From: Candidatus Kryptoniota bacterium
Lineage (GTDB): Bacteria > Bacteroidota > Ignavibacteria > Kryptoniales > JAKASW01
Length of the DNA stretch: 64,000 nucleotides
Direction: 5' to 3'
NCBI GenBank assembly: GCA_024641705.1
Contig: JAHECO010000001.1
Location: 1-64,000, forward strand
The notes beneath the pieces are model-generated. The model searched no databases and was not told where the DNA came from. It saw only the letters and a program-made list of their open reading frames with translations. Both the position numbers and the translations under genes were made by a program. Of the stretch, positions 4,593 through 53,053 are shown piece after piece (position 1 is the stretch's first letter; every line of letters starts with the position of its first letter).

Positions 4593-7256
4593 ATGAGCGA
4601 GACATTGTTGATAAGCGCGGCCGCTTTTTCGCTGCTCTTGACCATTGTGTATGCTTACGTGAGGAAACAGAAGCATATAGAGGCTGAGCTCGAATCCGCA
4701 AGAAGGATCAGAGCGATAGCTGGGTTGAAGCTTTCGAGGAATTCCTCGACAGAAGACTCCCTGAGGGCAGTACTGTCGACGACGGCGAGAGCATACAATT
4801 CGGGCGAAAGCAAACTCCAATTCCACAGTCCTGCCCTGGGCGAGTTTCTAATCTCGGGGGGCGGCGAGAACAGGCACGAGCAGAGTGTCCTTCAACGAAT
4901 CGACAGCGTATTATCCAGCATCGACAAACCGCGGCAGGAGTTAAGCGGCCCGGGTCAGCGCAGGGATGTTGTCGTTTTCACCGTCGATGATCAGGAGTTC
5001 TCTTGCAGACTGGAGCTCAGGACTAACGTCGAGCCAGCCCACATCGAGTACGCGTACGTGCAGGATCTGATTAGGGAAAAAATCTCCAAGCTGCTTCTCG
5101 ATAAGATGGACCAGGTAGTAAAGGCGGCCCTCAGGGATCTCGGGACGCCGTATGCCGTCGTCGACAATCGCGGCAGGATACTTCACGAAAGCAGTTCCTT
5201 CGCGGGCGTGTTTCACCGCGCGGACGAATCCGAACTGCTCGGGATGATCGACGACCTCTGCAAGTCCGGCAAGGACAGGAAGATCTTCGATTTGGAGGGC
5301 GCCGGCAGAAGAACAGCGCTGACTAAGATAGACAGGGATCTGTTTGTCGTTTTCTCGGTCAATGGAGAACAAGACCGGAGCGGTATTCATTTGGAAACGG
5401 AGTCGATGCTCTTCGATGCACTTGAGGACATGAATCTGGGTATCGTCGTCCTCGAAGCGGGTGATAACGGACAGAATTCGGATTACAGGATATCTCAAAT
5501 CAACGAGGCGTTCTACAGGATTTTCGGACTGGACGGCAGCAACGCGCAATCGGACGAGGTTGCCGAAATACTCTCCTCTGCTCTCAGGCAGGACGAGATG
5601 AAGAAGCCTCCTCAAGCCGCCGCGCGCGTCCCCGGTGACGTTCACTACATGAGAAGGGACGGCCTCAGAGTCCGGGCCCGGTTGAGGGTCATCAGGAAAA
5701 TGGGAGGCCCACAGGTTGTAATCTTTGAACCGGTGGAGAACTCACAGTTTCTCATGTCCACCTATCGTCAGTTGATCGATGCCGCACAGCATCTGTTCGC
5801 CACCGGCGACGTCCGGCTCTATCTGAAGGAGTTGAGGGATGCTACCCGGTCCGACGGCGTCGCGCTGGCGAAAAGGGATTCCGAGTCTGATAAGTTCGAG
5901 ATCAAAGAGAAAGCCGGTTTCATTATCAACGTCCCGCAGCTCCTTTTTGACGACCTGGCAAGCCGTGACCTCGTCAATCTCCAGGGATACATCCTCGCCC
6001 CTATCAGGGACCACGATGCAATTAACGGTGCTGTCGTTGCGTTGAAACCGAACCAGGAGGCGGTCGAGGCGGTCGCCGTAGGCGCAAGGCTCCTCGAGGC
6101 CTACAACACGATACAGGAAGAGATTCACAGTCTCCATTCGCAGACAGCCTGGCTCATCTCGGACGCAAAGCGGGCGGATGCCGCGAACAGGTCGAAGTCG
6201 GAGTTCCTCGCGAACATGAGCCATGAAATACGCACTCCGCTGAATTCTATTATAGGCTTCGGCGATATCATCCACTCCGATACGGATGACCTCGAAAACG
6301 GGACATTGCGCGAGTTCAGCGGCAACATCGTCATCGCCGGGAAACACCTGCTGAGTCTCATAAACGACATCCTCGACCTCGCGAAGGTGGAAACGGGGAA
6401 GATGAAGCTCGAAGTGCAGGAGTTCTCCATAAGAGAAGTCGTGGAGAGCGTGGAAAGGATTCTCCAGCCTCTCCTCGACAGGAAGAAGGTAACTCTCGAA
6501 GCGAGGTTTGAAGAGGGCGTCGGTGTCTTCGTCGCCGACACCGTGAAATTCAAACAGATACTCTACAACCTCCTCAACAATGCTATTACTTACAGCCCCA
6601 CCGGTGGTGTCGTACGGTTCGACGTTGCGAAGTCCGCGGACGGAATAGAGATGAGAGTGATCGACAAAGGTATCGGCATCAAGAAAGAAGACCTCGACAA
6701 ACTCTTCAAGCCGTTCGTGCAGCTGGGCGAAGCCCATGTCGGAAGCGGCCTGGGGCTGGTACTCACGAGAAAGCTGGTCGAGCTCCATGGCGGCGCGATA
6801 TGGGTAGACAGCGTATACGGGAACGGGACGACCGTCGTCGTCTACCTGCCGAGTACAGCAGGGACATCGGCGGCGCCGGAAGAGAAGCGCGTCAATGAAG
6901 ACGACGAGGAGATTGTCTTCCTTACCGACGACGACCAGCTCTACAGCCTGTTCACGACTGTCATGGACGGCGTCGGGTTCAAGACCAAAAGGGTCAGCCC
7001 TGGTTCCGTCGCCGGGTCGGACTTTGCGGGCGATGATGCCGTGCTGGTGATTGACGCCAGTGCGGCCAATCTGACGGAGAATGTCATCTCGGCGTGCAGG
7101 GATGCCGAGAAAGCGCTGTTCCTGACCGACCCGGAGGATGTCACAGCTCTCGCCGAAAGAGTGAAGGACTACGAGAGCAAGGTGAGTTTCATAGACAGAA
7201 GGAATTTCACGAAGAGTGAATTGCTGACGGAGCTTAGTGCTGCCGGTCGGCTCTGA
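4593..7256 (+). CDS. Sensor histidine kinase with PAS/GAF modules and a C-terminal receiver-like domain
   Basis: This 887-aa kinase has one N-terminal membrane helix (about residues 5-25), a PAS-like segment, further PAS and GAF-like sensor regions up to about residue 520, a HisKA dimerisation helix with SEFLANMSHEIRTPLNS (phospho-acceptor His near residue 543), and a HATPase domain with the N box (LYNLLNNAITYSP), VIDKGIGIKKED and GSGLGLVL. The last 110 residues read like a receiver (EIVFLTDDDQLYS, VLVIDAS), again poorly conserved. GAGGAGG upstream is a strong ribosome binding site. It follows a degenerate receiver gene, so two receiver-like modules flank the kinase core. The signal sensed is unknown. 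Confidence 0.9.
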   Translation: MSETLLISAAAFSLLLTIVYAYVRKQKHIEAELESARRIRAIAGLKLSRNSSTEDSLRAVLSTTARAYNSGESKLQFHSPALGEFLISGGGENRHEQSVLQRIDSVLSSIDKPRQELSGPGQRRDVVVFTVDDQEFSCRLELRTNVEPAHIEYAYVQDLIREKISKLLLDKMDQVVKAALRDLGTPYAVVDNRGRILHESSSFAGVFHRADESELLGMIDDLCKSGKDRKIFDLEGAGRRTALTKIDRDLFVVFSVNGEQDRSGIHLETESMLFDALEDMNLGIVVLEAGDNGQNSDYRISQINEAFYRIFGLDGSNAQSDEVAEILSSALRQDEMKKPPQAAARVPGDVHYMRRDGLRVRARLRVIRKMGGPQVVIFEPVENSQFLMSTYRQLIDAAQHLFATGDVRLYLKELRDATRSDGVALAKRDSESDKFEIKEKAGFIINVPQLLFDDLASRDLVNLQGYILAPIRDHDAINGAVVALKPNQEAVEAVAVGARLLEAYNTIQEEIHSLHSQTAWLISDAKRADAANRSKSEFLANMSHEIRTPLNSIIGFGDIIHSDTDDLENGTLREFSGNIVIAGKHLLSLINDILDLAKVETGKMKLEVQEFSIREVVESVERILQPLLDRKKVTLEARFEEGVGVFVADTVKFKQILYNLLNNAITYSPTGGVVRFDVAKSADGIEMRVIDKGIGIKKEDLDKLFKPFVQLGEAHVGSGLGLVLTRKLVELHGGAIWVDSVYGNGTTVVVYLPSTAGTSAAPEEKRVNEDDEEIVFLTDDDQLYSLFTTVMDGVGFKTKRVSPGSVAGSDFAGDDAVLVIDASAANLTENVISACRDAEKALFLTDPEDVTALAERVKDYESKVSFIDRRNFTKSELLTELSAAGRL

Positions 7257-7315: not shown

Positions 7316-7342
7316 GCCGGGTGGTGCCGGCTCTATTTTTTT
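7316..7342 (+). terminator. Rho-independent terminator after the histidine kinase
   Basis: A GCCGG/CCGGC stem with a 6-nt loop is followed by TCTATTTTTTT. It lies 60 nt after the kinase stop codon. It overlaps the last codons of the convergent ATPase gene, whose stop is inside the T-run. Confidence 0.6.
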
Positions 7343-8127
7343 GCTGCCAGATCGATGATCTCCTCCGGCCCGAAGCAGACCCTGTCCGAGCCTAAGGCTG
7401 CCGATATCCTCGCGTAGACGGGATATCTGATCCCGGACCGCCGCATCAACTCCCGCCCATCTCCTCTCTCGAACAACGCCTCCTTTCTTCCGCAGAATTG
7501 AGCCATGCCGTGGGAAAGCATCAGCATGTCGTCGGCGTAAGGGAGAAGAAAATTCAGATCATGCGTCACGATCACGATAGTCTTGCCCTGTTTCTTCAGA
7601 AGCGAGATCAGGCCGCCGAGGTACTCTTTTTCGCGGATCGACAACCCGGCGGTTGGTTCGTCAAGTGCCAGAACCGGAGTGTTCATCGCCGACGAACCGC
7701 CGATTGCCACGAGTCGTCTCAGAGCGTACGTCAGTGAGTAGGGATTCGATCCGAGATGTTCACCGAGATGAAAGGTCTCGATTATCGGTTGGAGGAGTGA
7801 GCCGTCGGCACCTATGTTGTCGATTCCGAACCGGAGCTCCTTTGCAACGCTCTGCGCAAACAGCTGATCGTCGGGATTTTGAAAACTCAGCGCGCACCTC
7901 CGGGCAAGCTCGCTCGTGCTCTTTTCTTTGGTGGGGACATCCCCAAGGTACACCGTGCCTTTTGCCGGTTTAAGTATCCCGTTCATCATCCTGAGGAACG
8001 TGCTCTTTCCGGATCCGTTGTGTCCCACGATAAGGACAGTTCGCCCCGACCCGAATTCGCAGGTGATATCCCTGAGGGCTTCGGTGGATCCGTATGCGAA
8101 GCTGACCCCTTCGTACTTCACTCTCAT
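7333..8127 (-). CDS. ECF transporter ATPase with degenerate signature motif
   Basis: This is a CbiO/EcfA-type ABC ATPase of 264 aa that would energise the S and T components encoded upstream. Walker A (GHNGSGKST), Q-loop (FQNPDDQLFA), Walker B with catalytic Glu (VLALDEPTAG) and the H-loop His (IVIVTHDLNFLL) are present. The signature region, normally LSGGE/Q, reads LTYAL (NPYSLTYALRRLVAIGG), and the D-loop Asp is replaced (AGLSIRE). The DNA over this region gives no sign of a frameshift. I start at the ATG at 8127, whose first bases overlap the stop of the preceding ATPase gene (ATGA). Together with the second ATPase this makes one canonical and one degenerate composite site (see findings). 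Confidence 0.88.
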   Translation of the reverse strand: MRVKYEGVSFAYGSTEALRDITCEFGSGRTVLIVGHNGSGKSTFLRMMNGILKPAKGTVYLGDVPTKEKSTSELARRCALSFQNPDDQLFAQSVAKELRFGIDNIGADGSLLQPIIETFHLGEHLGSNPYSLTYALRRLVAIGGSSAMNTPVLALDEPTAGLSIREKEYLGGLISLLKKQGKTIVIVTHDLNFLLPYADDMLMLSHGMAQFCGRKEALFERGDGRELMRRSGIRYPVYARISAALGSDRVCFGPEEIIDLAAKK

Positions 8128-8969
8128 CCGTGTCCCCTCAGCATCTTGATCGCGCTCCTGTAGTCGAGCTCGTAGAGAGATGAAGCGGGTTCTTTGCGAA
8201 TCAATCCTTTCTTCGCGGCTTCGGCCACGCACACCGTCCAGGCGGGAAGGTCCAGGTACCGTGCGGTGGATTCGTTGATCGCTGTCTCCGTCCGTCCGTC
8301 CGACACGATGCTCCCCTCATCAAGGACGACAAGCCGGTCGGCCACCTTAAGAGTTAGGTATGGATCATTCTCCGCGATGAGAAGCGCCATGTCCTTCTTG
8401 AGCTCCGTCAGCACATCTCCCAGGTAGGCGGTCGTCTCGGGATCCAGCTGGCTTAACGGTTCATCGAGGATCAGGAGATCCGGCCTGACCGCAATCGCGG
8501 AGGCCAGTACCACCTTTTGTTTCTCGCCACCCGATAGTTCGAGGGGATTGCGGTCCGCAAGGTGGCCGATCCTGATCTTCTCAACCGCCTCACCGACGCG
8601 CCTGAAGGTTTCTTCCCTTGATAGACCGATGTTTTCGCACGGGAACGCGATCTCTTCCAGGACGGTCGACCTGAGGTATGTGATCTGCGCGTAAAAGTTC
8701 TGAAGTACTACCGCTGTTCGGGGTTCTTCCGAGCCATTCTTTCCGTGTCTCAGTATTACGCCTTGCCGTTTGACGGCGGGGTACGTCTCAAGAAGGCCGG
8801 CTGCCGCCAGGCATAGGGTAGACTTGCCGGATCCGCTGAGACCGCTGACGACGACACTCTCCCTCTCGTTGACGTCGAGGCTTATGTTCCGGAGAGCCGG
8901 GGGAGCGTCGGCGGAATATGAGACCGAGAAACTCTGAAAGGAGAGAATCTTCAACTGAAGATCCTCCAT
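8124..8969 (-). CDS. ECF transporter ATPase lacking the H-loop histidine
   Basis: This second CbiO/EcfA-type ATPase (281 aa) has Walker A (GLSGSGKST), Q-loop (LQNFYAQITYL), an intact signature LSGGEKQKV and Walker B LLILDEPLSQLD. The H-loop, normally AEHD or VTHD, reads LLIAENDPYL, so the switch His is Asn. I start at the ATG at 8969 (MEDLQLKIL), 19 nt inside the end of the T-component gene; the frame continues open upstream but only as a shadow of that gene. It pairs with the ATPase encoded immediately downstream, and translational coupling through the overlaps is likely. Confidence 0.88.
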   Translation of the reverse strand: MEDLQLKILSFQSFSVSYSADAPPALRNISLDVNERESVVVSGLSGSGKSTLCLAAAGLLETYPAVKRQGVILRHGKNGSEEPRTAVVLQNFYAQITYLRSTVLEEIAFPCENIGLSREETFRRVGEAVEKIRIGHLADRNPLELSGGEKQKVVLASAIAVRPDLLILDEPLSQLDPETTAYLGDVLTELKKDMALLIAENDPYLTLKVADRLVVLDEGSIVSDGRTETAINESTARYLDLPAWTVCVAEAAKKGLIRKEPASSLYELDYRSAIKMLRGHG

Positions 8970-9706
8970 ATCCAGATGCCGATCGCAGCCAGAAGGATTA
9001 TCCTGCCGGCCACCAGCCCTCCGCGGTCCACCTCTATTTCCACGAGCGGAACGGGAACCGGCGATCCGGGATATTTCCTGTCGGAGAAATTCGCCGCCCG
9101 CAGCGCGATTCCGCGGTCGAGGCTTTCCGCGATGTAGGAATACGACAACGGCACAAGCATCGGGAGTAGGTACCTCGCCCGGCTGAAGACGTTCTTCGTC
9201 GTGTCCAGCCCGCGGGCAGACTGCGCCGTGTAGATCTTCTGGAGCTTGTCGCGCATCAGGTGAACCATCGCAACGGAGAGAAGATAGATGTATACGAGCC
9301 GCCTGTCGGCCCCTCTCGCCACGAGATACTCGGAGATCGTCTCCGATTTGACACGTGAGAAGTAGCAGCTGATTGCCAGGACTATCAAAGTCAGTCTTGC
9401 CGCCACCGTGGACGCGAAGACAAGCCCCTGGTCTCTGAATTTCAGAGGACCCAACATGAACACCACATTGCCCGTGAAAAATATTCCGTTGATGACGAAC
9501 CCAATCAATATCAGCGGGAGGACGAACTTGAGAAATCCGCGGTAGATACTCTTTCTCCGGTGGGACAACAGTGTGGCAACAAAGAGCGCGGCGAGGATCG
9601 CGATCTGCCATTCCAGTCTGAAGGCGAAGGCCGCGAAAACGATTGTCAGCGTGATATAATGATCGAGCGGATTGTACGCTCTACGGGGGATCTCAGGTGT
9701 TCGCAT
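8951..9706 (-). CDS. ecfT: ECF transporter transmembrane (T) component
   Basis: This 251-aa membrane protein belongs to the CbiQ/EcfT family, which couples the ATPases to the S component. Several hydrophobic helices cover the first 130 residues. The cytosolic coupling helices carry the Ala-Arg-Gly type motifs QSARGLD and LDRGIALRAANF, the second a variant of the usual ARGF form. I start at the ATG at 9706 (MRTPEIPRRAY), which overlaps the end of the S-component gene by 14 nt. A further start 19 codons upstream is possible but adds no family-like sequence. Confidence 0.85.
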   Translation of the reverse strand: MRTPEIPRRAYNPLDHYITLTIVFAAFAFRLEWQIAILAALFVATLLSHRRKSIYRGFLKFVLPLILIGFVINGIFFTGNVVFMLGPLKFRDQGLVFASTVAARLTLIVLAISCYFSRVKSETISEYLVARGADRRLVYIYLLSVAMVHLMRDKLQKIYTAQSARGLDTTKNVFSRARYLLPMLVPLSYSYIAESLDRGIALRAANFSDRKYPGSPVPVPLVEIEVDRGGLVAGRIILLAAIGIWIWRIFS

Positions 9707-10286
9707 ATCCGGGTAAGCGCAGCAATATCGAGCGAGGAATTCTGGTGAGGAGGAAATAAACAATCAGGTAGCTTACCGCTTTATCGACCGGGTCGGCGGC
9801 GAGTCCCTGCAGGAACGCGCTCTGCACAATCGATTTCCCGATTGCCCTGAAATAGAGGACGAGGAAATCTGTCCCGCCCATCGTCACGCCCCCGAACATG
9901 AACGCTGCGATAGGTGCAGAAGCCACCGCGGCAAGGACGCCCTGGACAAGCCCTGCGGGAATTGCGGCGTACCATCTCCTGAAGACCCCGAGTTTCGCCA
10001 CGATCCCGGTGAACGCCCCGATCACCAAGGTAACGGGGATAAAAAATATGAACGCGTAATTGAAGAAGAAGCCGAGCGTAAGATTGGCAAATGCTCCCGT
10101 CAGCATGCCGGCGAGCGGACCGACGACGCATGCTATCATGATTGTCCCAATAGAATCGAGATATAGCGGCAGCTTGATGAGCTGGACGGCCTGTCCGACG
10201 ACGATGTTGAGAGCGGCTCCGAAGGCGATCAGCGGGATTGTGGTGGCGTTCACTTCCCTTTCGAACCGGGAAAGTGCCTCAGCCAT
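9693..10286 (-). CDS. ECF transporter S component, substrate unknown
   Basis: This 197-aa integral membrane protein has about six hydrophobic segments and the compact layout of an S (substrate-binding) component. The LPLYLDSIGTIMIACVVGP region near residue 40 followed by AGMLTGAFANLTLGFFFN is typical of such proteins. It sits between the eIF2B-like gene (8-nt overlap) and ecfT (14-nt overlap), so the five genes form one tightly packed transcription unit. The vitamin or metabolite imported cannot be read from the sequence; the companion enzyme hints at a sugar-phosphate or nucleoside-derived compound, which is inference only. Confidence 0.75.
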   Translation of the reverse strand: MAEALSRFEREVNATTIPLIAFGAALNIVVGQAVQLIKLPLYLDSIGTIMIACVVGPLAGMLTGAFANLTLGFFFNYAFIFFIPVTLVIGAFTGIVAKLGVFRRWYAAIPAGLVQGVLAAVASAPIAAFMFGGVTMGGTDFLVLYFRAIGKSIVQSAFLQGLAADPVDKAVSYLIVYFLLTRIPRSILLRLPGYANT

Positions 10287-11163
10287 AGAGCTCTTTCATC
10301 GCGGTTTCAAGCTTCGCCAGCCCCAACGCCGGCGGAATGTCCCCCGCTTCTGTTACCACGGAAGTGACGAGGTCCGGCGGGACCTTGTCGAAGTAAACAT
10401 TTTTGACCTCGAATTCCGGGTTGGGGAAAATCTCGTGAGGGCTCTCTTCCCTGTTGAGGAACCGCGCGGCGTCCTTTTCCGGGTCGTATTTCAGAACGCT
10501 CGTGACGGTATGGAATTCCTTTCCCGATGCCGCGCACGCCGCTGCTAGCGCGTAGGAACCTATCTTGTTGATGACGGTTCCGTCGGAAAGAACCGCGTCC
10601 GCCCCGACCAGAGCCGCGTCAATCCGCTCGACGAAGAAACCTATTGCGGCGTCCGAAACAAGCACGGGATGGTGTCCCATCGCCTTGAGCGCGCGCGCCG
10701 ACTGCCTCCCTTCGAAGAGAGGACGCGACTCCATGACGTACACCGTGACGGTCTTTCCCTCCGCGGCCGCGGTCTCGAAAGTCTTCATTACGAACTCGCT
10801 CTGGCTCAGGGTGGCGTACGATCTTCCGTCGGTCACGAGCCCCGCTGCGTTCACGGCTGTGCGCGCGGAGGCATCGCCGACCTTCTGGCGCAGGACACTG
10901 ATGTAAGCGCCGATGTCTGCGGCCGGCAGCCTGGAGGATGCCGACAGTATCAGCCTGCATATGTTGGAAAGTGCTGACATCTGGGCCTGCGCGTTCGAAA
11001 GCGTAGATGCTATGGAATTCAGCTCGGGAATGAAACCCTCTTCTCCGGAATTTTTTCCGCAGAAATCGAGCAACAGGTCGAGCGTGTCTTTCAAAACCTG
11101 CTGTGCGCTCGAGACGTTGTCCGTCGCAATGCGATTAGCTCTGTCCAGGTATTCGGCTTTCAT
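10279..11163 (-). CDS. eIF2B alpha/beta/delta-family protein (sugar-phosphate isomerase-like)
   Basis: This 294-aa protein belongs to the eIF-2B/MtnA/ribose-1,5-bisphosphate isomerase superfamily. Family motifs visible include VMESRPLFEGRQSARAL near residue 150, the Asp-containing VGADAVLSDGTVINKIGSY near 195, and YFDKVPPDLVTSVVTEAG at the C-terminus. Bacterial members act on phosphorylated sugars: MtnA on methylthioribose-1-phosphate, others on ribose-1,5-bisphosphate. It is the first gene of an operon with a complete ECF importer. This suggests that the enzyme handles something related to the imported solute, but the isomerase subtype cannot be assigned and regulatory roles are possible. 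Confidence 0.8.
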   Translation of the reverse strand: MKAEYLDRANRIATDNVSSAQQVLKDTLDLLLDFCGKNSGEEGFIPELNSIASTLSNAQAQMSALSNICRLILSASSRLPAADIGAYISVLRQKVGDASARTAVNAAGLVTDGRSYATLSQSEFVMKTFETAAAEGKTVTVYVMESRPLFEGRQSARALKAMGHHPVLVSDAAIGFFVERIDAALVGADAVLSDGTVINKIGSYALAAACAASGKEFHTVTSVLKYDPEKDAARFLNREESPHEIFPNPEFEVKNVYFDKVPPDLVTSVVTEAGDIPPALGLAKLETAMKELYG

Positions 11164-47303: not shown

Positions 47304-47429
47304 TACAACAAAAGGGAGAGGAGGATCTTGACTCCTGCTCTCCTTATGGAATTATATAGAAGACTACGGATGGGGGCGAGCCAATCCGTAAGCCGGAAGG
47401 ATCGCTGTGTTTGAAAATCGCACAAGCCA

Positions 47430-47458
47430 TTGACATAATTTCTAACACCAGTTATATT
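47430..47458 (+). promoter_or_regulatory. Near-consensus promoter of the Panacea toxin-antitoxin operon
   Basis: TTGACA (47430-47435) and TATATT (47453-47458) are separated by exactly 17 nt. Transcription would start near 47465, some 27 nt before the antitoxin ATG. Such a strong promoter is expected for an autoregulated toxin-antitoxin unit. Confidence 0.75.
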
Positions 47459-47491
47459 AGCTCCGCAATAAAACCAGCGGAGGACGGGGTT

Positions 47492-48286
47492 ATGAATTCT
47501 ATAAATGCTCAGATCGGGCGAAAAGTGAAGGAATTAAGAGAGAGCAGAAATTTGAGCCAGGAGAAGCTTGCGGAAATGCTCGGCATTCCAAGGCCGGCGG
47601 TGTCCCAGATCGAGAACGGAGCGAGAGCGGTCTCGGCCGATGAACTCGTCAGGATGTCGAAGGCCTTAGGGACTCATGTCGAAACATTGCTCGGGATCAA
47701 GCAGGAGCCGCAAGTGGTACTTGAGAAAGAGGAGGTCCCGCAGGCTTCAAAGAAGCCGACGATGCGCATCAACGTGCCGCAGGAAAATCTGAACAAGTTC
47801 CGGCAGGTTTTGATGTACATCCTGGATAAGGTCGGAGCGAAGCCGAACATCGGCGAGACTGTGATTTACAAGCTGCTCTATTTCATCGATTTCGATTACT
47901 ACGAGAAATATGAGGAACAGCTCATAGGCGCGAAATATCAGAGGAATCACTACGGGCCTGCGCCGATCGAATTCCCGAAGGTTGTTCAGAAGATGATTGC
48001 GTCGAAGGAGATCGAAAAGGTAAAGAACAAGGTTTTTGATTTTCCGCAGACGAAATATCTTCCGTTGAAGAAGCCCGACTTGTCGAAGCTGAGCGCTCGT
48101 GAGCTGGAGCTGATCGACGGCGTCCTGCACAGACTTTCGGATATGACCGCCAGGCAGATAAGCGAGTACTCTCACGAGGACATCCCGTGGAAAAGCGCGG
48201 GGGATGGAGAGATAATGGAATATGAGTCGGTCTTCTACAGGACGCGGCCATACTCGGTCAGAGAGTACGAAGACGAAGATCAGTGA
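47492..48286 (+). CDS. XRE-type antitoxin with Panacea (DUF4065) domain
   Basis: This 264-aa protein combines an N-terminal XRE helix-turn-helix (residues about 5-65: LRESRNLSQEKLAEMLGI, RPAVSQIENGARAV) with a C-terminal Panacea/SocA-like domain (KLLYFIDFDYYEKYEEQL, YQRNHYGPAPIEFPKVV). Panacea domains are known as versatile antitoxin modules that neutralise unrelated toxins. I start at ATG 47492, behind GCGGAGGA. The downstream RelE-like frame overlaps its 3' end, a standard toxin-antitoxin arrangement. The HTH should bind the promoter region just upstream. Confidence 0.85.
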   Translation: MNSINAQIGRKVKELRESRNLSQEKLAEMLGIPRPAVSQIENGARAVSADELVRMSKALGTHVETLLGIKQEPQVVLEKEEVPQASKKPTMRINVPQENLNKFRQVLMYILDKVGAKPNIGETVIYKLLYFIDFDYYEKYEEQLIGAKYQRNHYGPAPIEFPKVVQKMIASKEIEKVKNKVFDFPQTKYLPLKKPDLSKLSARELELIDGVLHRLSDMTARQISEYSHEDIPWKSAGDGEIMEYESVFYRTRPYSVREYEDEDQ

Positions 48287-48683
48287 AATAACGCGCCTCC
48301 CGGAATTCGAGAGGGAGCTGAAGGCACTGCAGAAACGGTTCAGGACGCTCGATGATGATATCAGGACTTTTCAAACATCAGCTCTGAAGATGTTCCACGA
48401 GCAGGGGATCGATGCGGGCGCCATGGAGCAAATCTCCGGACTTGGCATTGAGGAGCCGAAGATATACAAGGTGGTGAAGTTTGCCTGTCGTTCTCTGCCG
48501 GGCAAGGGAAATAGGTCGGGGATAAGAATTATTTACGCGTTTTGCGAACGGGGTTGCAGCGTGGAATACATCGAGATCTACTATAAGGGCGATAAGGAGA
48601 ACGAGGACAGGGGGAGGATAAGAAAGTATTATGGGACGAGGAAGGTAGGGGAGGAAAAGGAGATGTATGAGATTGAGAGTTGA
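48222..48683 (+). CDS. RelE-family toxin partner of the Panacea antitoxin
   Basis: The core ITRLPEFERELKALQKRF, TLDDDIRTF and SGIRIIYAFCERGCSVEYIEIYYKG followed by RIRKYYG matches RelE/HigB-like ribosome-dependent mRNA interferases. The only common start is ATG 48222, which overlaps the antitoxin gene by 65 nt. Family similarity begins later, near 48275, where only rare start codons (ATC, ATA) exist, so the first 15-17 residues may be an artefact of that overlap. Function is inferred from fold-level similarity and the antitoxin neighbour. Confidence 0.75.
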   Translation: MSRSSTGRGHTRSESTKTKISEITRLPEFERELKALQKRFRTLDDDIRTFQTSALKMFHEQGIDAGAMEQISGLGIEEPKIYKVVKFACRSLPGKGNRSGIRIIYAFCERGCSVEYIEIYYKGDKENEDRGRIRKYYGTRKVGEEKEMYEIES

Positions 48684-49033
48684 GAACGGCTGGCTGGTTC
48701 TTCGCACTCCTGAGTTCGTCTGGTAGAGCGGCGGCGGTGATAGGGATTGAGAGGGGGGTAGGGAACAGTATTCCTGATAGTACGATGTCAGGATAATTAT
48801 CATTGAATGATTTGATGTTTTAGGTGACGACGGGCTATATATCTTATGAAAAAAGTAACGCTAAGATCTCTGGATGCGGAGCAATCATCGAGTGGTCTCA
48901 TGATATCACCGGTGGTTTGGAAAAACAGTTGGATTGAATATTCCCATGGTGGTAAATTTGAGGCAAGAATGGAGCAGTCTACTCTGTCAGGGATTGGAAC
49001 GAAAGAAGAGTCGGTTAACGGGAGGTTGGATAC
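48684..49033. other. Intergenic region before the accessory cluster (350 bp)
   Basis: The gap becomes noticeably more AT-rich after about 48740. TTGATG (48812-48817) and TATATA (48836-48841), 18 nt apart, may be the promoter of the following cluster. A 69-codon frame from 48846 lacks a ribosome binding site and is not called. A GGGAGG site lies just before the 49034 start. Confidence 0.5.
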
Positions 49034-49603
49034 ATGTCTAAATCGCATAAGTTAAACTCAAAGGATATACTTCTCTTGATGCTCTACTCACCCGGAAAGA
49101 CAGGGAAAGAGAATGAGGAAATCAGAGGACGAACACGGATAGTTAAGATGCTCTTCATATTCCAAAAGGAATATATGAAGAGCTTCAAGGCGGACAAGAT
49201 TGACTTTAAACCGTGGAATTATGGTCCATGGTCCGAAGACATCTACACAGACATAGAATTCCTCAAGAACCTCAATTTTATCGAGGTCGGTTCTTCATCT
49301 TCAACGGACGCTGACGTCGTTGCCGAAGAGGCTGAGGAGTTCGAGAAGTGGGAGGGGGCCTTGGACATGGATGCGTCGGCGACCGAAGAGTACAACCAAG
49401 AGGTTTTTGCGCTGTCAGATTTGGGTAAAGGCTATGTGTCGGAGCGTCTGTACAGCGATTTGTCGGCTGATCAGAAGAAATTGTTGTTGAAATTCAAAGA
49501 AAAGTATAACTCCTTGTCCTTGTACGCAATCCTTCAGTACGTGTATAAGAAGTATCCAGATATGACGGAGAGGTCAAAGATACTTGACAAGATAAATCCA
49601 TGA
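49034..49603 (+). CDS. Panacea/YwgA-like protein, first gene of the accessory cluster
   Basis: The N-terminal half (DILLLMLYSPGKTGKENEE, GRTRIVKMLFIFQKEYMK, KPWNYGPWSEDIYTDIEFLK) has the pattern of small winged-helix-like proteins in the YwgA/Panacea group: a target helix with KxLF and the YGPxS turn. The C-terminal half is acidic then helical (SALSDLGKGYVSE-type helix, QKKLLLKFKEKYN). It is 189 aa, starts at ATG 49034 behind GGGAGG, and overlaps the next gene by 4 nt (ATGA). Related domains act as antitoxins or sensors in defence loci; that role here is inference. Confidence 0.55.
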   Translation: MSKSHKLNSKDILLLMLYSPGKTGKENEEIRGRTRIVKMLFIFQKEYMKSFKADKIDFKPWNYGPWSEDIYTDIEFLKNLNFIEVGSSSSTDADVVAEEAEEFEKWEGALDMDASATEEYNQEVFALSDLGKGYVSERLYSDLSADQKKLLLKFKEKYNSLSLYAILQYVYKKYPDMTERSKILDKINP

Positions 49604-50112
49604 ACAGCGCCGAAACGTTTTTCGGATGGTCCCCGCTGATTCCCCTTATTTGCGCGCTTGCGGGCATCTTCTATGATAAGTGGCTTTCCAGAGAGAAACG
49701 GTTTTCAGACGCGTGTGACGCTTTGCGCAATCAAATTCTTGTACGCAAATCTGATGCGTTACAGTTGCTCGTGGGCCAAGTGATGTCAGGGTTTGACAAT
49801 GTCGGGCTGAGTGAGAAGGATTTGTATCTACTTTTCTTTCAGGAAATGATGCAACACTCGCGCTATTACGAAACCGTAGAAAAAGTCCAGCGGCGATTCG
49901 AAGGATCGCGTGTCGTTGTGTTCTGTATAGTGGGCGTGGAACTGCTCGCGTTTGGTTTTGGTATGCTTGGCGTGCTGAGTCACGTAGTGGCCGTATATCT
50001 TCTAGGAGGCGGATTCATCTTGACGTTTGCTCTCGTTTTGGTTGGGCTCAGGCAGGATTGGCTGTTGAATGAGTTGAAGAAAGAACCCAAACTATTTCCG
50101 GGCAGATCATGA
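49600..50112 (+). CDS. Membrane protein of unknown function in the accessory cluster
   Basis: This 170-aa protein has one N-terminal membrane helix (WSPLIPLICALAGIFYD), a central soluble helical part of about 80 residues, and two more membrane helices (VVVFCIVGVELLAFGFGML and VYLLGGGFILTFALVLVGL). I recognise no family. It overlaps both neighbours by 4 nt (ATGA on each side), so it is translated together with the Panacea-like protein and the nuclease-like protein. Small membrane proteins beside nucleases are common effectors or anchors in defence operons, which is only an analogy. Confidence 0.6.
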   Translation: MNSAETFFGWSPLIPLICALAGIFYDKWLSREKRFSDACDALRNQILVRKSDALQLLVGQVMSGFDNVGLSEKDLYLLFFQEMMQHSRYYETVEKVQRRFEGSRVVVFCIVGVELLAFGFGMLGVLSHVVAVYLLGGGFILTFALVLVGLRQDWLLNELKKEPKLFPGRS

Positions 50113-50510
50113 CCGAGCTTCAACTTGTTAACAAAGTAAGAGAAATGCTGGTTGCAGAAGGAAAAACGGTTTATTTGGAAGTTCCCTTCCTGTCGAGATG
50201 CATCGATATGTTAATTGTTCAAAACGATGAAGTAACATCCGTCGAGTTCAAGATGCGTGATTGGCGGAAGGCGATAGCGCAGTCCAGAGAACATTTGCTC
50301 GGAGTCGACAAGGCCTATGTGTGCCTGCCCCATCGAAAGTCAATAACCGAAAAGATGCGAATAGAGTTCGAGAATGCTGGCATAGGCTTGCTATTCTTCT
50401 CGGAAGACAATCCACCGTTCAAAGAAATGATTCCAGCCAAGCGGTCGGAGATTAAATGGGATATCTCCCGGCGTTGGCTGGAGGAGGCAATTGAGACTCA
50501 TGTCGGCTGA
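50109..50510 (+). CDS. PD-(D/E)XK-like nuclease domain protein
   Basis: This 133-aa protein shows the core of the PD-(D/E)XK nuclease fold: a helix (TELQLVNKVREMLVAEG), Glu in VYLEVPFLS, Asp in RCIDMLIVQ, and the paired residues in SVEFKMRDWRKAIAQ (Glu-x-Lys), then a strand KAYVCLP. The order and spacing Glu-Asp-ExK are right for catalysis. It has no separate DNA-binding domain. The start overlaps the membrane-protein stop (ATGA), and its 3' end overlaps the next gene's start, so these products are probably made together. Confidence 0.65.
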   Translation: MTELQLVNKVREMLVAEGKTVYLEVPFLSRCIDMLIVQNDEVTSVEFKMRDWRKAIAQSREHLLGVDKAYVCLPHRKSITEKMRIEFENAGIGLLFFSEDNPPFKEMIPAKRSEIKWDISRRWLEEAIETHVG

Positions 50511-51828
50511 TTTGGTAAAGCACTTCTTGCGTTATGGTACACACGCTGAAAGCAGATATTTCCTAGAATCTGAATTGGTAGACAACTATGAGGGGGTTGT
50601 CTTCAACGGCAATATGGTAGCTATGACTAGGTCTGCAATTGCGGGCTTTATCACGAGCTTGAAGAACAAGCCCTTCATTGTTGATCCTCAGACACACGCT
50701 TTTCAGCACGATGTGTTTTATGTTGGTCAGGAAGGCGACGATGGGACCGTTGTACCAAAGCGGTCTATTCAGAAACTGGCAGAAGCGTTCGGTGACCCCG
50801 TAGCAAGCAAAGTTGGGAAATCGTCTGTGCTGCCCGAAGATTTTGCAAACGCGAAGATTAGAGCGGACTTCTGCAAACACGTCGTGCAATTTCAATTGGG
50901 TATACGTGATCAAATTGAGAAACGGCCTGAATGGAGCTACGTTAGCTACGCGATAGAGAAGAAGAAGATCGACGAAGATGTCTTATCTCCCGCCGGCGTA
51001 GTCCCCCCTTATTTCTACATGACAGAGAACACATTAGACGAGTGGTTAAACTTAAACTGTGAGTTTGTTAAGATTGCCGCTGCGGAGTTCGATGATCAGC
51101 AAATACTTGCTCAGCTTGTGATCTCCAAGCAAGTTGTGCTTAATCGCAGCTTGCGAAAGAAGATAATTGACGCATATTCCAGCTTAAATTGCGCGGCTAT
51201 ACTTATTTGGATCGATGACTTCGATGAAACTAAGGTGGGTGAAGATCTGCTTAAAGGATTTAGGGATTTGGCTCATGGTTTGTCGTCTAGCAAGAAGGTC
51301 ATCAATCTTTACGGTGGATATTTCTCGATTCTCCTAACGAAAATGAATATGTTGCACGGTGTTTCCCACGGGCTGGAGTACGGGGAAAGCAGGGCTGTAA
51401 TACCTGTCGGTGGCGGTATTCCAATGGCCAAGTATTACTTTTATCCCTTGCACATACGCCTCAGATATCCGGATTTTGTCCGCATCATCAAGCTGAAAGG
51501 TTTAATAGGCAAGGAGTCTGTTTTTAAGGCAAACGTCTGCGAGTGTGACGTTTGTGAAGGTGGGAAGATCGAGAAGTTTGGCGTGACTAAGCCTGTAAAA
51601 TTCAAGCGAGGAGAGCAGGTGATCACGCTTAATTACCCAACCCCAGAAACGAAGGACTTTAGTCTTCGCCACTATCTATGGTCGAAGAAAAAGGAGTTTG
51701 AAACCGTGGCTTCGAGAAACAAAACAACCCTGGCATCTGAGTTGGAAGCATCTTTTGATGCACACAAATCAGTGATGGGGTTAGATCCTATATACTATCT
51801 CAAGAATTGGAAAAAGCTGCTCACTTAG
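50500..51828 (+). CDS. Possible TGT-like TIM-barrel protein with CxCxxC motif
   Basis: This 442-aa protein is of unnamed family. The C-terminal half has VINLYGGYFSILLTK, GVSHGLEYGESRAVIPVGGG and PMAKYYFYPLHIRLRYPDFV, then CECDVC and a later His in SLRHYLW. A CxCxxC followed by His is the zinc site of tRNA-guanine transglycosylases, and the Gly-rich segment before it fits a TIM-barrel strand end. The resemblance is partial and the Cys-to-His spacing (38) is longer than in bacterial TGT. I start at ATG 50500; a TTG at 50491 is closer to the GAGGAGG site. If real, it may exchange a base in DNA or RNA, as DpdA does. Confidence 0.4.
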   Translation: MSADLVKHFLRYGTHAESRYFLESELVDNYEGVVFNGNMVAMTRSAIAGFITSLKNKPFIVDPQTHAFQHDVFYVGQEGDDGTVVPKRSIQKLAEAFGDPVASKVGKSSVLPEDFANAKIRADFCKHVVQFQLGIRDQIEKRPEWSYVSYAIEKKKIDEDVLSPAGVVPPYFYMTENTLDEWLNLNCEFVKIAAAEFDDQQILAQLVISKQVVLNRSLRKKIIDAYSSLNCAAILIWIDDFDETKVGEDLLKGFRDLAHGLSSSKKVINLYGGYFSILLTKMNMLHGVSHGLEYGESRAVIPVGGGIPMAKYYFYPLHIRLRYPDFVRIIKLKGLIGKESVFKANVCECDVCEGGKIEKFGVTKPVKFKRGEQVITLNYPTPETKDFSLRHYLWSKKKEFETVASRNKTTLASELEASFDAHKSVMGLDPIYYLKNWKKLLT

Positions 51829-51907
51829 GCTCTGGAATTGGATTGAGTGTATGCCCTCAGCAGAGGATGCTCTCCGATTCAACTATCACCTTTGTGGCGT
51901 CTGGTGA

Positions 51908-53053
51908 ATGATTAGGAAAGATTGGACTCATGACGAACTTGTTCTTGCATTCAATCTGTATTGCAAGACACCCTTCGGAAAGATTCACACGCGGAATCCG
52001 GACATTGTTGTTCTAGCGAGATCACTGGGGCGCACTCCTTCCGCCGTTTCATGGAAATTGGCAAACTTTGCAAAGCTTGATCCCGCGCTACAAGCGAGAC
52101 AAATCAAAGGCGCCTCTCATGGTGCGACCGCCGAGATAGAGGTGTGGAATGAGTTTAACTCCAACTGGGACGAGCTGGCATTCGAGAGCGAAAAGCTTCT
52201 GGCCAAGTTATCAGGAAGAAGAGTCGGCGAAGAATTTGAAGACTATATTTATGAGACCCTGCGAGACGGCAAAGAGCGCACAAGCATGGTCAAGGTCAGA
52301 GTAAACCAAGACTTTTTTCGAAAGAGTGTTTTGGCCGCATACAATTCAAAGTGCTGCATCACTGGGCTCGCAATTCCCAAGCTACTGTTAGCCAGCCACA
52401 TTGTCCCATGGAGAGTTGACATCTGGAACAGAGTGAATCCGAGAAATGGTTTGTGCCTGAATCCGGTACATGACCGCGCCTTTGACCAGGGACTTATGAC
52501 TGTTACGACGGACTTTAAGGTAATAGTATCGAAGTCCATCAAGTCAACATCTGAGAATAGCGCGGTCAAACGGTTTCTACTCGACTATGCGGGTAGCTCT
52601 ATTGAATTACCAGCGGTTTCAACCGGATCCTTCTTTCTTGAAATACCACAACGAAAACATTTTTATCGACTCGCTATGAAAGGAGGTATGATAATGAACG
52701 TGAGGTTCAACTATCTCTACCGTGACGCGGGCAACTACAAATCTTGGGGGGCTGTCATTTTCAGAAACCCTGACGGTTTGCCAATTAGCGAAATCGAAAG
52801 TCGTCTACGCAAGGCATTCTTTCAATACGATTTGTTTATTGCAGGTCAGATTGGTGTTCTCGAGGTATTCTTGTATGACAAGAGTGATGCGACGGAAGAC
52901 GATGTCTGCTTTCATGAATTTGATTCCGTGGAGTTTACCAATGAGGTCCCAACCGACGCTATGGATCGCACAGCAGCCGAGTTTCTCGAAGTCGTGGAGC
53001 TTTCCTCAAAGATGGGGTGGAAGGCTTTCGATCCCCGTTTCCCCAAGCACTGA
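51908..53053 (+). CDS. HNH endonuclease fused to a second small domain
   Basis: Residues 1-130 form a restriction-type N-terminal region (WTHDELVLAFNLYCKTPFG, LGRTPSAVSWKLANFA). The HNH nuclease core follows: CCITGLAIPKLLLASHIVPW, RVNPRNGLCLNPVHDRAFDQGL. After about residue 262 the sequence changes to NVRFNYLYRDAGNYKSWGAVIFR and CFHEFDSVEFTNE, a separate 119-aa domain. A perfect AAAGGAGGT and an ATG at 52694 lie at the junction in the same frame. So this is either a fusion caused by loss of the HNH stop codon or two nested products. The HNH part resembles type II-like restriction endonucleases without a cognate methyltransferase nearby. Confidence 0.8.
   Translation: MIRKDWTHDELVLAFNLYCKTPFGKIHTRNPDIVVLARSLGRTPSAVSWKLANFAKLDPALQARQIKGASHGATAEIEVWNEFNSNWDELAFESEKLLAKLSGRRVGEEFEDYIYETLRDGKERTSMVKVRVNQDFFRKSVLAAYNSKCCITGLAIPKLLLASHIVPWRVDIWNRVNPRNGLCLNPVHDRAFDQGLMTVTTDFKVIVSKSIKSTSENSAVKRFLLDYAGSSIELPAVSTGSFFLEIPQRKHFYRLAMKGGMIMNVRFNYLYRDAGNYKSWGAVIFRNPDGLPISEIESRLRKAFFQYDLFIAGQIGVLEVFLYDKSDATEDDVCFHEFDSVEFTNEVPTDAMDRTAAEFLEVVELSSKMGWKAFDPRFPKH
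52679..52687 (+). promoter_or_regulatory. Internal Shine-Dalgarno inside the HNH frame
   Basis: AAAGGAGGT lies 6 nt before an in-frame ATG at 52694. It would start a 119-aa product (NVRFNYLYRDAGNY...) ending at the same stop, 53053. Its strength is unlike a chance occurrence inside a coding region. Confidence 0.7.

Follow-up and report, generated by a model that had tools for sequence, protein, structure and literature searches.

The ECF importer described here carries two ATPases which, paired as in known structures, would form one consensus nucleotide site and one degenerate site. Its genes are arranged with overlaps in the order S-T-A-A as a compact operon on the minus strand (7333-11163) of the window, the whole stretch of 64,000 nucleotides from a Candidatus Kryptoniota bacterium that was analysed. 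We consider it probable that this is a dedicated group I-like importer with one catalytic and one non-catalytic site, running on one ATP per cycle. Judged from the sequences, the two ATPases would pair as a heterodimer in the cell, the degenerate site would be catalytically inactive, and a single ATP would be spent in each round.

The genes and the motifs on which this reading depends are collected in Table 1. The 7333 gene starts at the ATG at 8127 and not at the start of the longer open reading frame at 8232, and it shares a 4-base overlap, ATGA, with the 8124 gene. The open reading frame of the T gene begins with a TTG at 9763 that runs into the S gene, and its true start is probably internal to the frame. 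With 51 bits against PF02361 (cut-off 25) the product is an EcfT/CbiQ-type T component, and it carries two Arg-containing coupling motifs, QSARG and SLDRG. Both ATPases have ECF-type domains, with ECF_ATPase_2 and ECF_ATPase_1 as their best profile matches, and they score 160.6 and 143.2 bits against the EcfA1/EcfA2 equivalogs TIGR04520/TIGR04521, below the cut-offs of 330 and 315. The probable S component also stays under the curated cut-off of NF045596, the CD3073 family (123.7 bits, cut-off 180), as do four of its relatives in other phyla, and it reaches 21.4 bits against PF12822 (cut-off 30.7). Since the ATPase and S profile scores all lie under the curated equivalog cut-offs, the system is a divergent ECF system. 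No binding-protein gene is present among the operon genes. The eIF2B-family isomerase-like gene overlaps the S gene by 8 bp and is kept in synteny in the genus; its product scores 111 bits against TIGR00511, well below the cut-off for ribose-1,5-bisphosphate isomerase.

Table 1. Operon genes and ATPase motifs, in window coordinates.
Coordinates	Strand	Feature	Remark
7333..8127	-	EcfA2-type ATPase, 264 aa	signature lost; Walker A/B, Q- and H-loops consensus
8124..8969	-	EcfA1-type ATPase, 281 aa	LSGGE intact, H-loop altered
8951..9763	-	T component (CbiQ/EcfT family)	PF02361, E 1.9e-13
9693..10286	-	S component, CD3073-like family	NF045596, E 5.9e-36
10279..11163	-	eIF2B-family sugar-phosphate isomerase-like protein (ribose-1,5-bisphosphate isomerase relative)	PF01008, E 3.8e-41
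8523..8537	-	8124 product, intact signature LSGGE	completes the consensus site
8367..8369	-	8124 product, H-loop Asn201 instead of His	degenerate site
8817..8843	-	8124 product, Walker A of the degenerate site, GLSGSGKST	consensus in the window organism
7720..7734	-	7333 product, degenerate signature LTYAL, aa 132-136, where LSGGQ belongs	lost in all orthologues too
7639..7641	-	7333 product, D-loop Ser163 instead of Asp
7999..8025	-	7333 product, Walker A of the consensus site, GHNGSGKST	key residues invariant, 29 homologues
7657..7671	-	7333 product, Walker B with catalytic Glu157	consensus site
7561..7563	-	7333 product, H-loop His189	consensus site

The signature region of the 7333 product reads NPYSLTYALRR and its D-loop AGLS, and the protein has Walker B (LALDE), an H-loop of the form VTHD and the Q-loop Gln. 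The 8124 product has Walker B (LILDE), a D-loop reading QLDPE and the Q-loop Gln, and its H-loop reads AEND. Direct reading of the motifs thus bears out the initial annotation, which had reported LTYAL for LSGGE and a lost D-loop Asp next to a kept H-loop in the first ATPase, and LSGGE with Asn at the H-loop His in the second. No substitute (hidden) signature is conserved in the homologue alignment of the EcfA2-type ATPase. AlphaFold2 predicts an ordinary NBD fold for the 7333 product (pLDDT 96.3, pTM 0.92), and the model matches CbiO (5x40_A, Z 33.1) and the EcfA2 of a closed ECF module (8bms_B, Z 32.1). Purifying selection acts on both ATPase genes, with dN/dS of 0.17/1.35 and 0.20/2.54 in the comparison with the closest congener.

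In an ABC dimer, each nucleotide site combines the Walker A/B motifs, Q-loop and H-loop from one subunit with the signature from its partner (PMC7756269), and in the closed ECF dimer each ATP is set against the partner's signature (PMC10368641). With the dimer geometry of the window ATPases taken from known structures, the signature loss of the 7333 product and the H-loop change of the 8124 product would fall in one site, because a site combines a signature with the H-loop of the partner. The second composite site (Walker motifs, Q-loop and H-loop of the 7333 product, LSGGE of the 8124 product) is fully consensus. Such a division had been proposed from the sequence at the outset and is supported by standard ABC dimer geometry; it is the pattern of degenerate-site ABC systems, where a lost signature is matched by loss of a catalytic residue of the partner in the same site. 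The D-loop Ser fits as well but is less specific because D-loops meet mid-dimer, the D-loop Asp being central to the dimer and not site-specific (PMC7756269). Taken alone, the H-loop change is weak evidence. Asn at this position was rejected as proof of a dead site, as a change of the H-loop His to Asn or Gln is tolerated in NBS2 of ABCC1 (PMC7756269), and Gln replaces the His in several ordinary EcfA1 proteins with both signatures intact. In four ordinary EcfA1 records with H-loop Gln (L140, L142, L144 and L145), the pair seems to be intact in both its signatures and its Walker motifs. Modelling of L081, a natural fusion homologue, gave pLDDT 81 and pTM 0.54; the structural comparison aligned single domains in turn, and the domain interface of the model is unusable because of its pTM.

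The signature loss extends far beyond this operon. Twenty related operons were fetched using the S component, and all ten congeneric ones (54-75% ATPase protein identity) share both the signature loss and the H-loop Asn. Sequencing error or local decay was rejected on the strength of these ten congeners, the purifying selection and the well-folded model. Other families of the class likewise lack the EcfA2-type signature (HPYDLPASHRR and similar), and the EcfA1-type H-loop His has gone in nearly all. In one ignavibacterial family (f6), the losses of the EcfA1-type protein extend to Walker A (GRKSELSTL, SRSQESSTI) and the catalytic Glu (LILDN) and never reach LSGGE; across the 20 related operons, the EcfA2-type protein retains its own Walker and H-loop residues in every case. 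A wider scan with one genome per species gave 80 named loci with the S-family of the window, ranging over Bacteroidota with Ignavibacteria, Chloroflexota, Actinomycetota, Armatimonadetes, Acetothermia, WOR-3, Kaistia/Mesorhizobium and rumen bacteria. In 68 of the 68 complete ATPase pairs the EcfA2-type signature lacks its second Gly and the EcfA1-type partner retains LSGG, the remaining loci being truncated or without a readable pair and holding no intact counter-example. Walker A, the Glu and the H-loop His of the EcfA2-type protein are kept in every readable case among these pairs; the EcfA1-type protein keeps the His in 36 (lost in 32), Walker A in 66 and the Glu in 65. Being shared by all complete pairs, the signature loss is an old family-wide trait. 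The H-loop and D-loop changes appear from their distribution to be later and confined to some lineages, with several later losses falling in the same site. Comparison of the same positions in orthologous operons, as the initial annotation had proposed, thus found the signature gone in every one, and no orthologue with both sites intact was found in this S-family, whether among the congeners, the 68 pairs or a sample centred on the T component. The asymmetry had been presented as a property of this operon; it is real here, but the whole family has it and its mirror image occurs elsewhere.

It is unlikely that both sites hydrolyse ATP, as they would if the LTYAL/LPPxR helix and the Arg that follows contacted the gamma-phosphate well enough for an ordinary motor with a divergent signature. 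The 8124 site in the window does have an intact Walker A, Walker B Glu and Q-loop, most of the family retains Walker A and the Glu, Arg137, just behind the signature, is almost invariant, and in CbiO homodimers the first Gly of LSGG varies freely (LSFGE, LSLGE). However, the residue missing from the EcfA2-type signature is the second Gly, which is otherwise kept, and the Ser is usually gone too. The motif at this position is also unconserved in the family (LTYAL, LPPAR, LSPTW, LGASR), unlike a reinvented contact, and further losses, of the H-loop, Glu and Walker A, occur at the degenerate site in several lineages and never at the consensus site. A role for the degenerate site as a regulatory or allosteric sensor of ATP or of a cargo-related nucleotide, in place of a passive spacer, would account for the retention of Walker A in most relatives of a site that looks non-catalytic, and genes of nucleoside metabolism do neighbour the importer; we regard it as quite improbable, given that the site has no conserved new motif and that Walker A is wholly lost in family f6. 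Least credible of all is that the ATPases are unpaired, with 8124-8124 homodimers driving the T component and the 7333 protein a regulator or relic: the 8124 protein by itself has both Walker motifs and LSGGE, but the ATP-binding residues of the 7333 product are invariant across 29 homologues while the 8124-type protein loses them in f6, the opposite of what homodimers predict, and many relatives fuse one of each domain in a single chain.

These fusions (L073, L074, L076, L078, L081, L083, L098 and L108), among them several Chloroflexota relatives with both domains in the same order, support a 1:1 heterodimer, and with it an importer with one catalytic and one non-catalytic site. In ordinary EcfA1/EcfA2 pairs from 58 genomes, taken as a control, both subunits carry Walker motifs and a signature of the LSGG type. 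The matching of losses was further followed in a motif-blind sample of 60 paired or fused ATPases, for which loci were chosen by their T component in three phyla, the third including records L076 (Armatimonadetes) and L115 (Burkholderiales). Loss in an ATP-binding half went with loss of the partner's signature in 11/18 cases against 9/102 (Fisher P 2.6e-6), and with loss of the signature on its own chain in 0/18. In a set reduced to one representative per 60% identity (46 non-redundant pairs) and tolerant of H-loop shifts, the partner signature departed from SGG opposite 8 of 9 binding-half losses (P 5.8e-4; p 1.5e-4 by permutation), and the signature on the same chain in none of the 9; the sequences are not phylogenetically independent, and the 60% reduction removes only part of their relatedness. 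The association is weaker under a stricter signature criterion (p 0.013). Where an apparent H-loop loss could be due to an alignment shift (L368, perhaps also L405 and L379), the later tests scored the H-loop as intact.

Six systems of this sample have the mirror orientation: L300, L316, L317, L322 and L343 from the Chloroflexota phylum and L352 from the Actinomycetota phylum. In these, the EcfA1-type signature is altered or lost (LSVSM, LTYGQ, MSMAA, QSMAD, LSSAQ, LSIGL) and the EcfA2-type H-loop is lost, with additional damage in L343 (Walker A Lys to Arg) and L352 (Glu to Asp). The ATPase tree, built on ~213 columns and with many weak inner nodes, places the mirrors in two lineages, L300/L316/L352, which have their own S gene (PF12822), and L317/L322/L343. 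On these sequences, degenerate sites seem to have had three or more origins among ECF motors, with both orientations represented.

Among known systems, the group I transporter YkoEDC with its fused double ATPase YkoD (PMC5037267) resembles the window importer in being a dedicated module with the same domain order. The window ATPases group with their YkoD-like counterparts, each on its own side of the tree (support 0.995 for the NBD2 clade, inner nodes weaker), and the H-loop of YkoD-like NBD1 often has the form [VA]EH[RK], as in the window family. The S component has no match to YkoE (PF09819) and is not of YkoE type. Classical YkoD (e.g. L133) keeps LSGGQ and LSGGE, unlike the window ATPases, and other YkoD-like double ATPases have intermediate signatures (LSLGE, LSHGE, LSKGQ, LSKAD, LSRGD), so the second-domain signature seems to have been eroded stepwise.

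Group II transporters such as ECF-FolT2 of L. delbrueckii (PMC10368641) are similar in having two different ATPases and an EcfT. In the turnover structure of ECF-FolT2, ATP is hydrolysed at the EcfA' site only and left in the EcfA site (PMC10368641); this EcfA' site corresponds to the consensus site of the window importer, which speaks for the one-site reading. That the asymmetry of FolT2 might predict in general which site is lost was rejected, since the mirror lineages have lost the opposite one. Mutation of the catalytic Glu in either ATPase of the L. delbrueckii transporter abolishes both transport and ATPase activity, so both sites matter there; its dimer closes on ATP binding, which expels the S component, and is reset by hydrolysis (PMC10368641).

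The initial annotation had likened the importer to heterodimeric exporters, and the parallel holds: in TAP, MRP1, TM287/288 and Pdr5 the signature is lost in one NBD and catalytic residues in the other (PMC7756269), and yeast Pdr5 has lost the Walker A Lys, the Glu (to Asn), the His and the signature, as in family f6 (PMC7756269). Exporters differ in uniting NBD and TMD in a single chain and in their coupling mechanism (PMC7756269), and in that the catalytic Glu is commonly changed too, whereas in the window family the signature was lost first and the Glu is usually kept. Degenerate sites are not limited to exporters, however, as importers outside the ECF class also have one. The ribose/nucleoside importers RbsA/NupO contain one degenerate site like the window importer, but are classical importers with a substrate-binding protein and fused NBDs of another family (PMC11466899). 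The genome-wide survey that noted the degenerate sites of RbsA/NupO omitted ECF transporters (PMC11466899).

A mechanism can be proposed for the importer with one working site. The catalytic site would consist of the Walker A/B motifs, Q-loop and H-loop of the 7333 product together with LSGGE of the 8124 product. At the other site, the Walker motifs of the 8124 product would face the signature-less helix of the 7333 product; in the window organism this site probably still binds ATP, which may serve as a hinge or spacer with little or no hydrolysis. As its Walker A/B motifs retain the consensus in the window, the site could bind ATP and also hydrolyse some of it. In family f6, normal ATP binding would be impossible and the site presumably empty. 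One ATP per cycle would close and then reopen the dimer, flex the coupling helices of the T component, expel the empty S component and reset the docking site.

The cargo may be approached through neighbouring genes. The importer is accompanied by an IUNH nucleoside hydrolase in Actinomycetota and Chloroflexota, by a PfkB kinase in Chloroflexota, and in the genus of the window by the ribose-bisphosphate-isomerase-like gene. In a member of the Ardenticatenaceae (L073:4672-5976), a queuine tRNA-ribosyltransferase (TGT) gene lies directly upstream of the S-family gene, and a link of that importer to queuosine precursors is possible. From the nucleoside hydrolase, PfkB, TGT and isomerase-like neighbours we can only guess that the substrate is a nucleoside or ribosyl compound. 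No riboswitch was detected at Rfam thresholds in the window and 12 relatives.

Two other features of the window were observed. A histidine kinase at 4593-7256 ends in ~120 receiver-like residues with no Pfam match, a possible pseudo-receiver. At 47411-53053 lies a low-GC island (46-48% against about 55%) that, by eye, encodes a helix-turn-helix protein followed by a Panacea/SocA-type-looking domain, a RelE/HigB-like small protein, a second Panacea-like protein and an HNH endonuclease-like protein, and it looks like a toxin-antitoxin or defence island.

In the open-access literature, to which the search was confined, no ECF transporter is reported to have a degenerate site, which agrees with the initial annotation, where no described ECF importer with such matched asymmetry was known; the novelty is provisional. 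The order of ATP binding and hydrolysis at the two ECF sites was stated to be open in a 2023 mechanistic paper (PMC10368641), and it is hard to settle in the model protein because single-site mutants are dead. A natural family with one site apparently switched off, together with lineages with the opposite site off, would provide ready-made one-engine motors. The family and these lineages suggest that a single working site is enough to run ECF vitamin-type pumps. The broader proposal, to which we give even chances, is that ECF motors need only one catalytic site and that either one will do, the EcfA1 side having been retired in the window family and its YkoD relatives and the EcfA2 side in L300/L316/L352 and L317/L322/L343, independently and even though T and S dock asymmetrically. 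If this is true, the degenerate-site design, described mainly in exporters, would have been reached several times in a mechanically unrelated class of importers.
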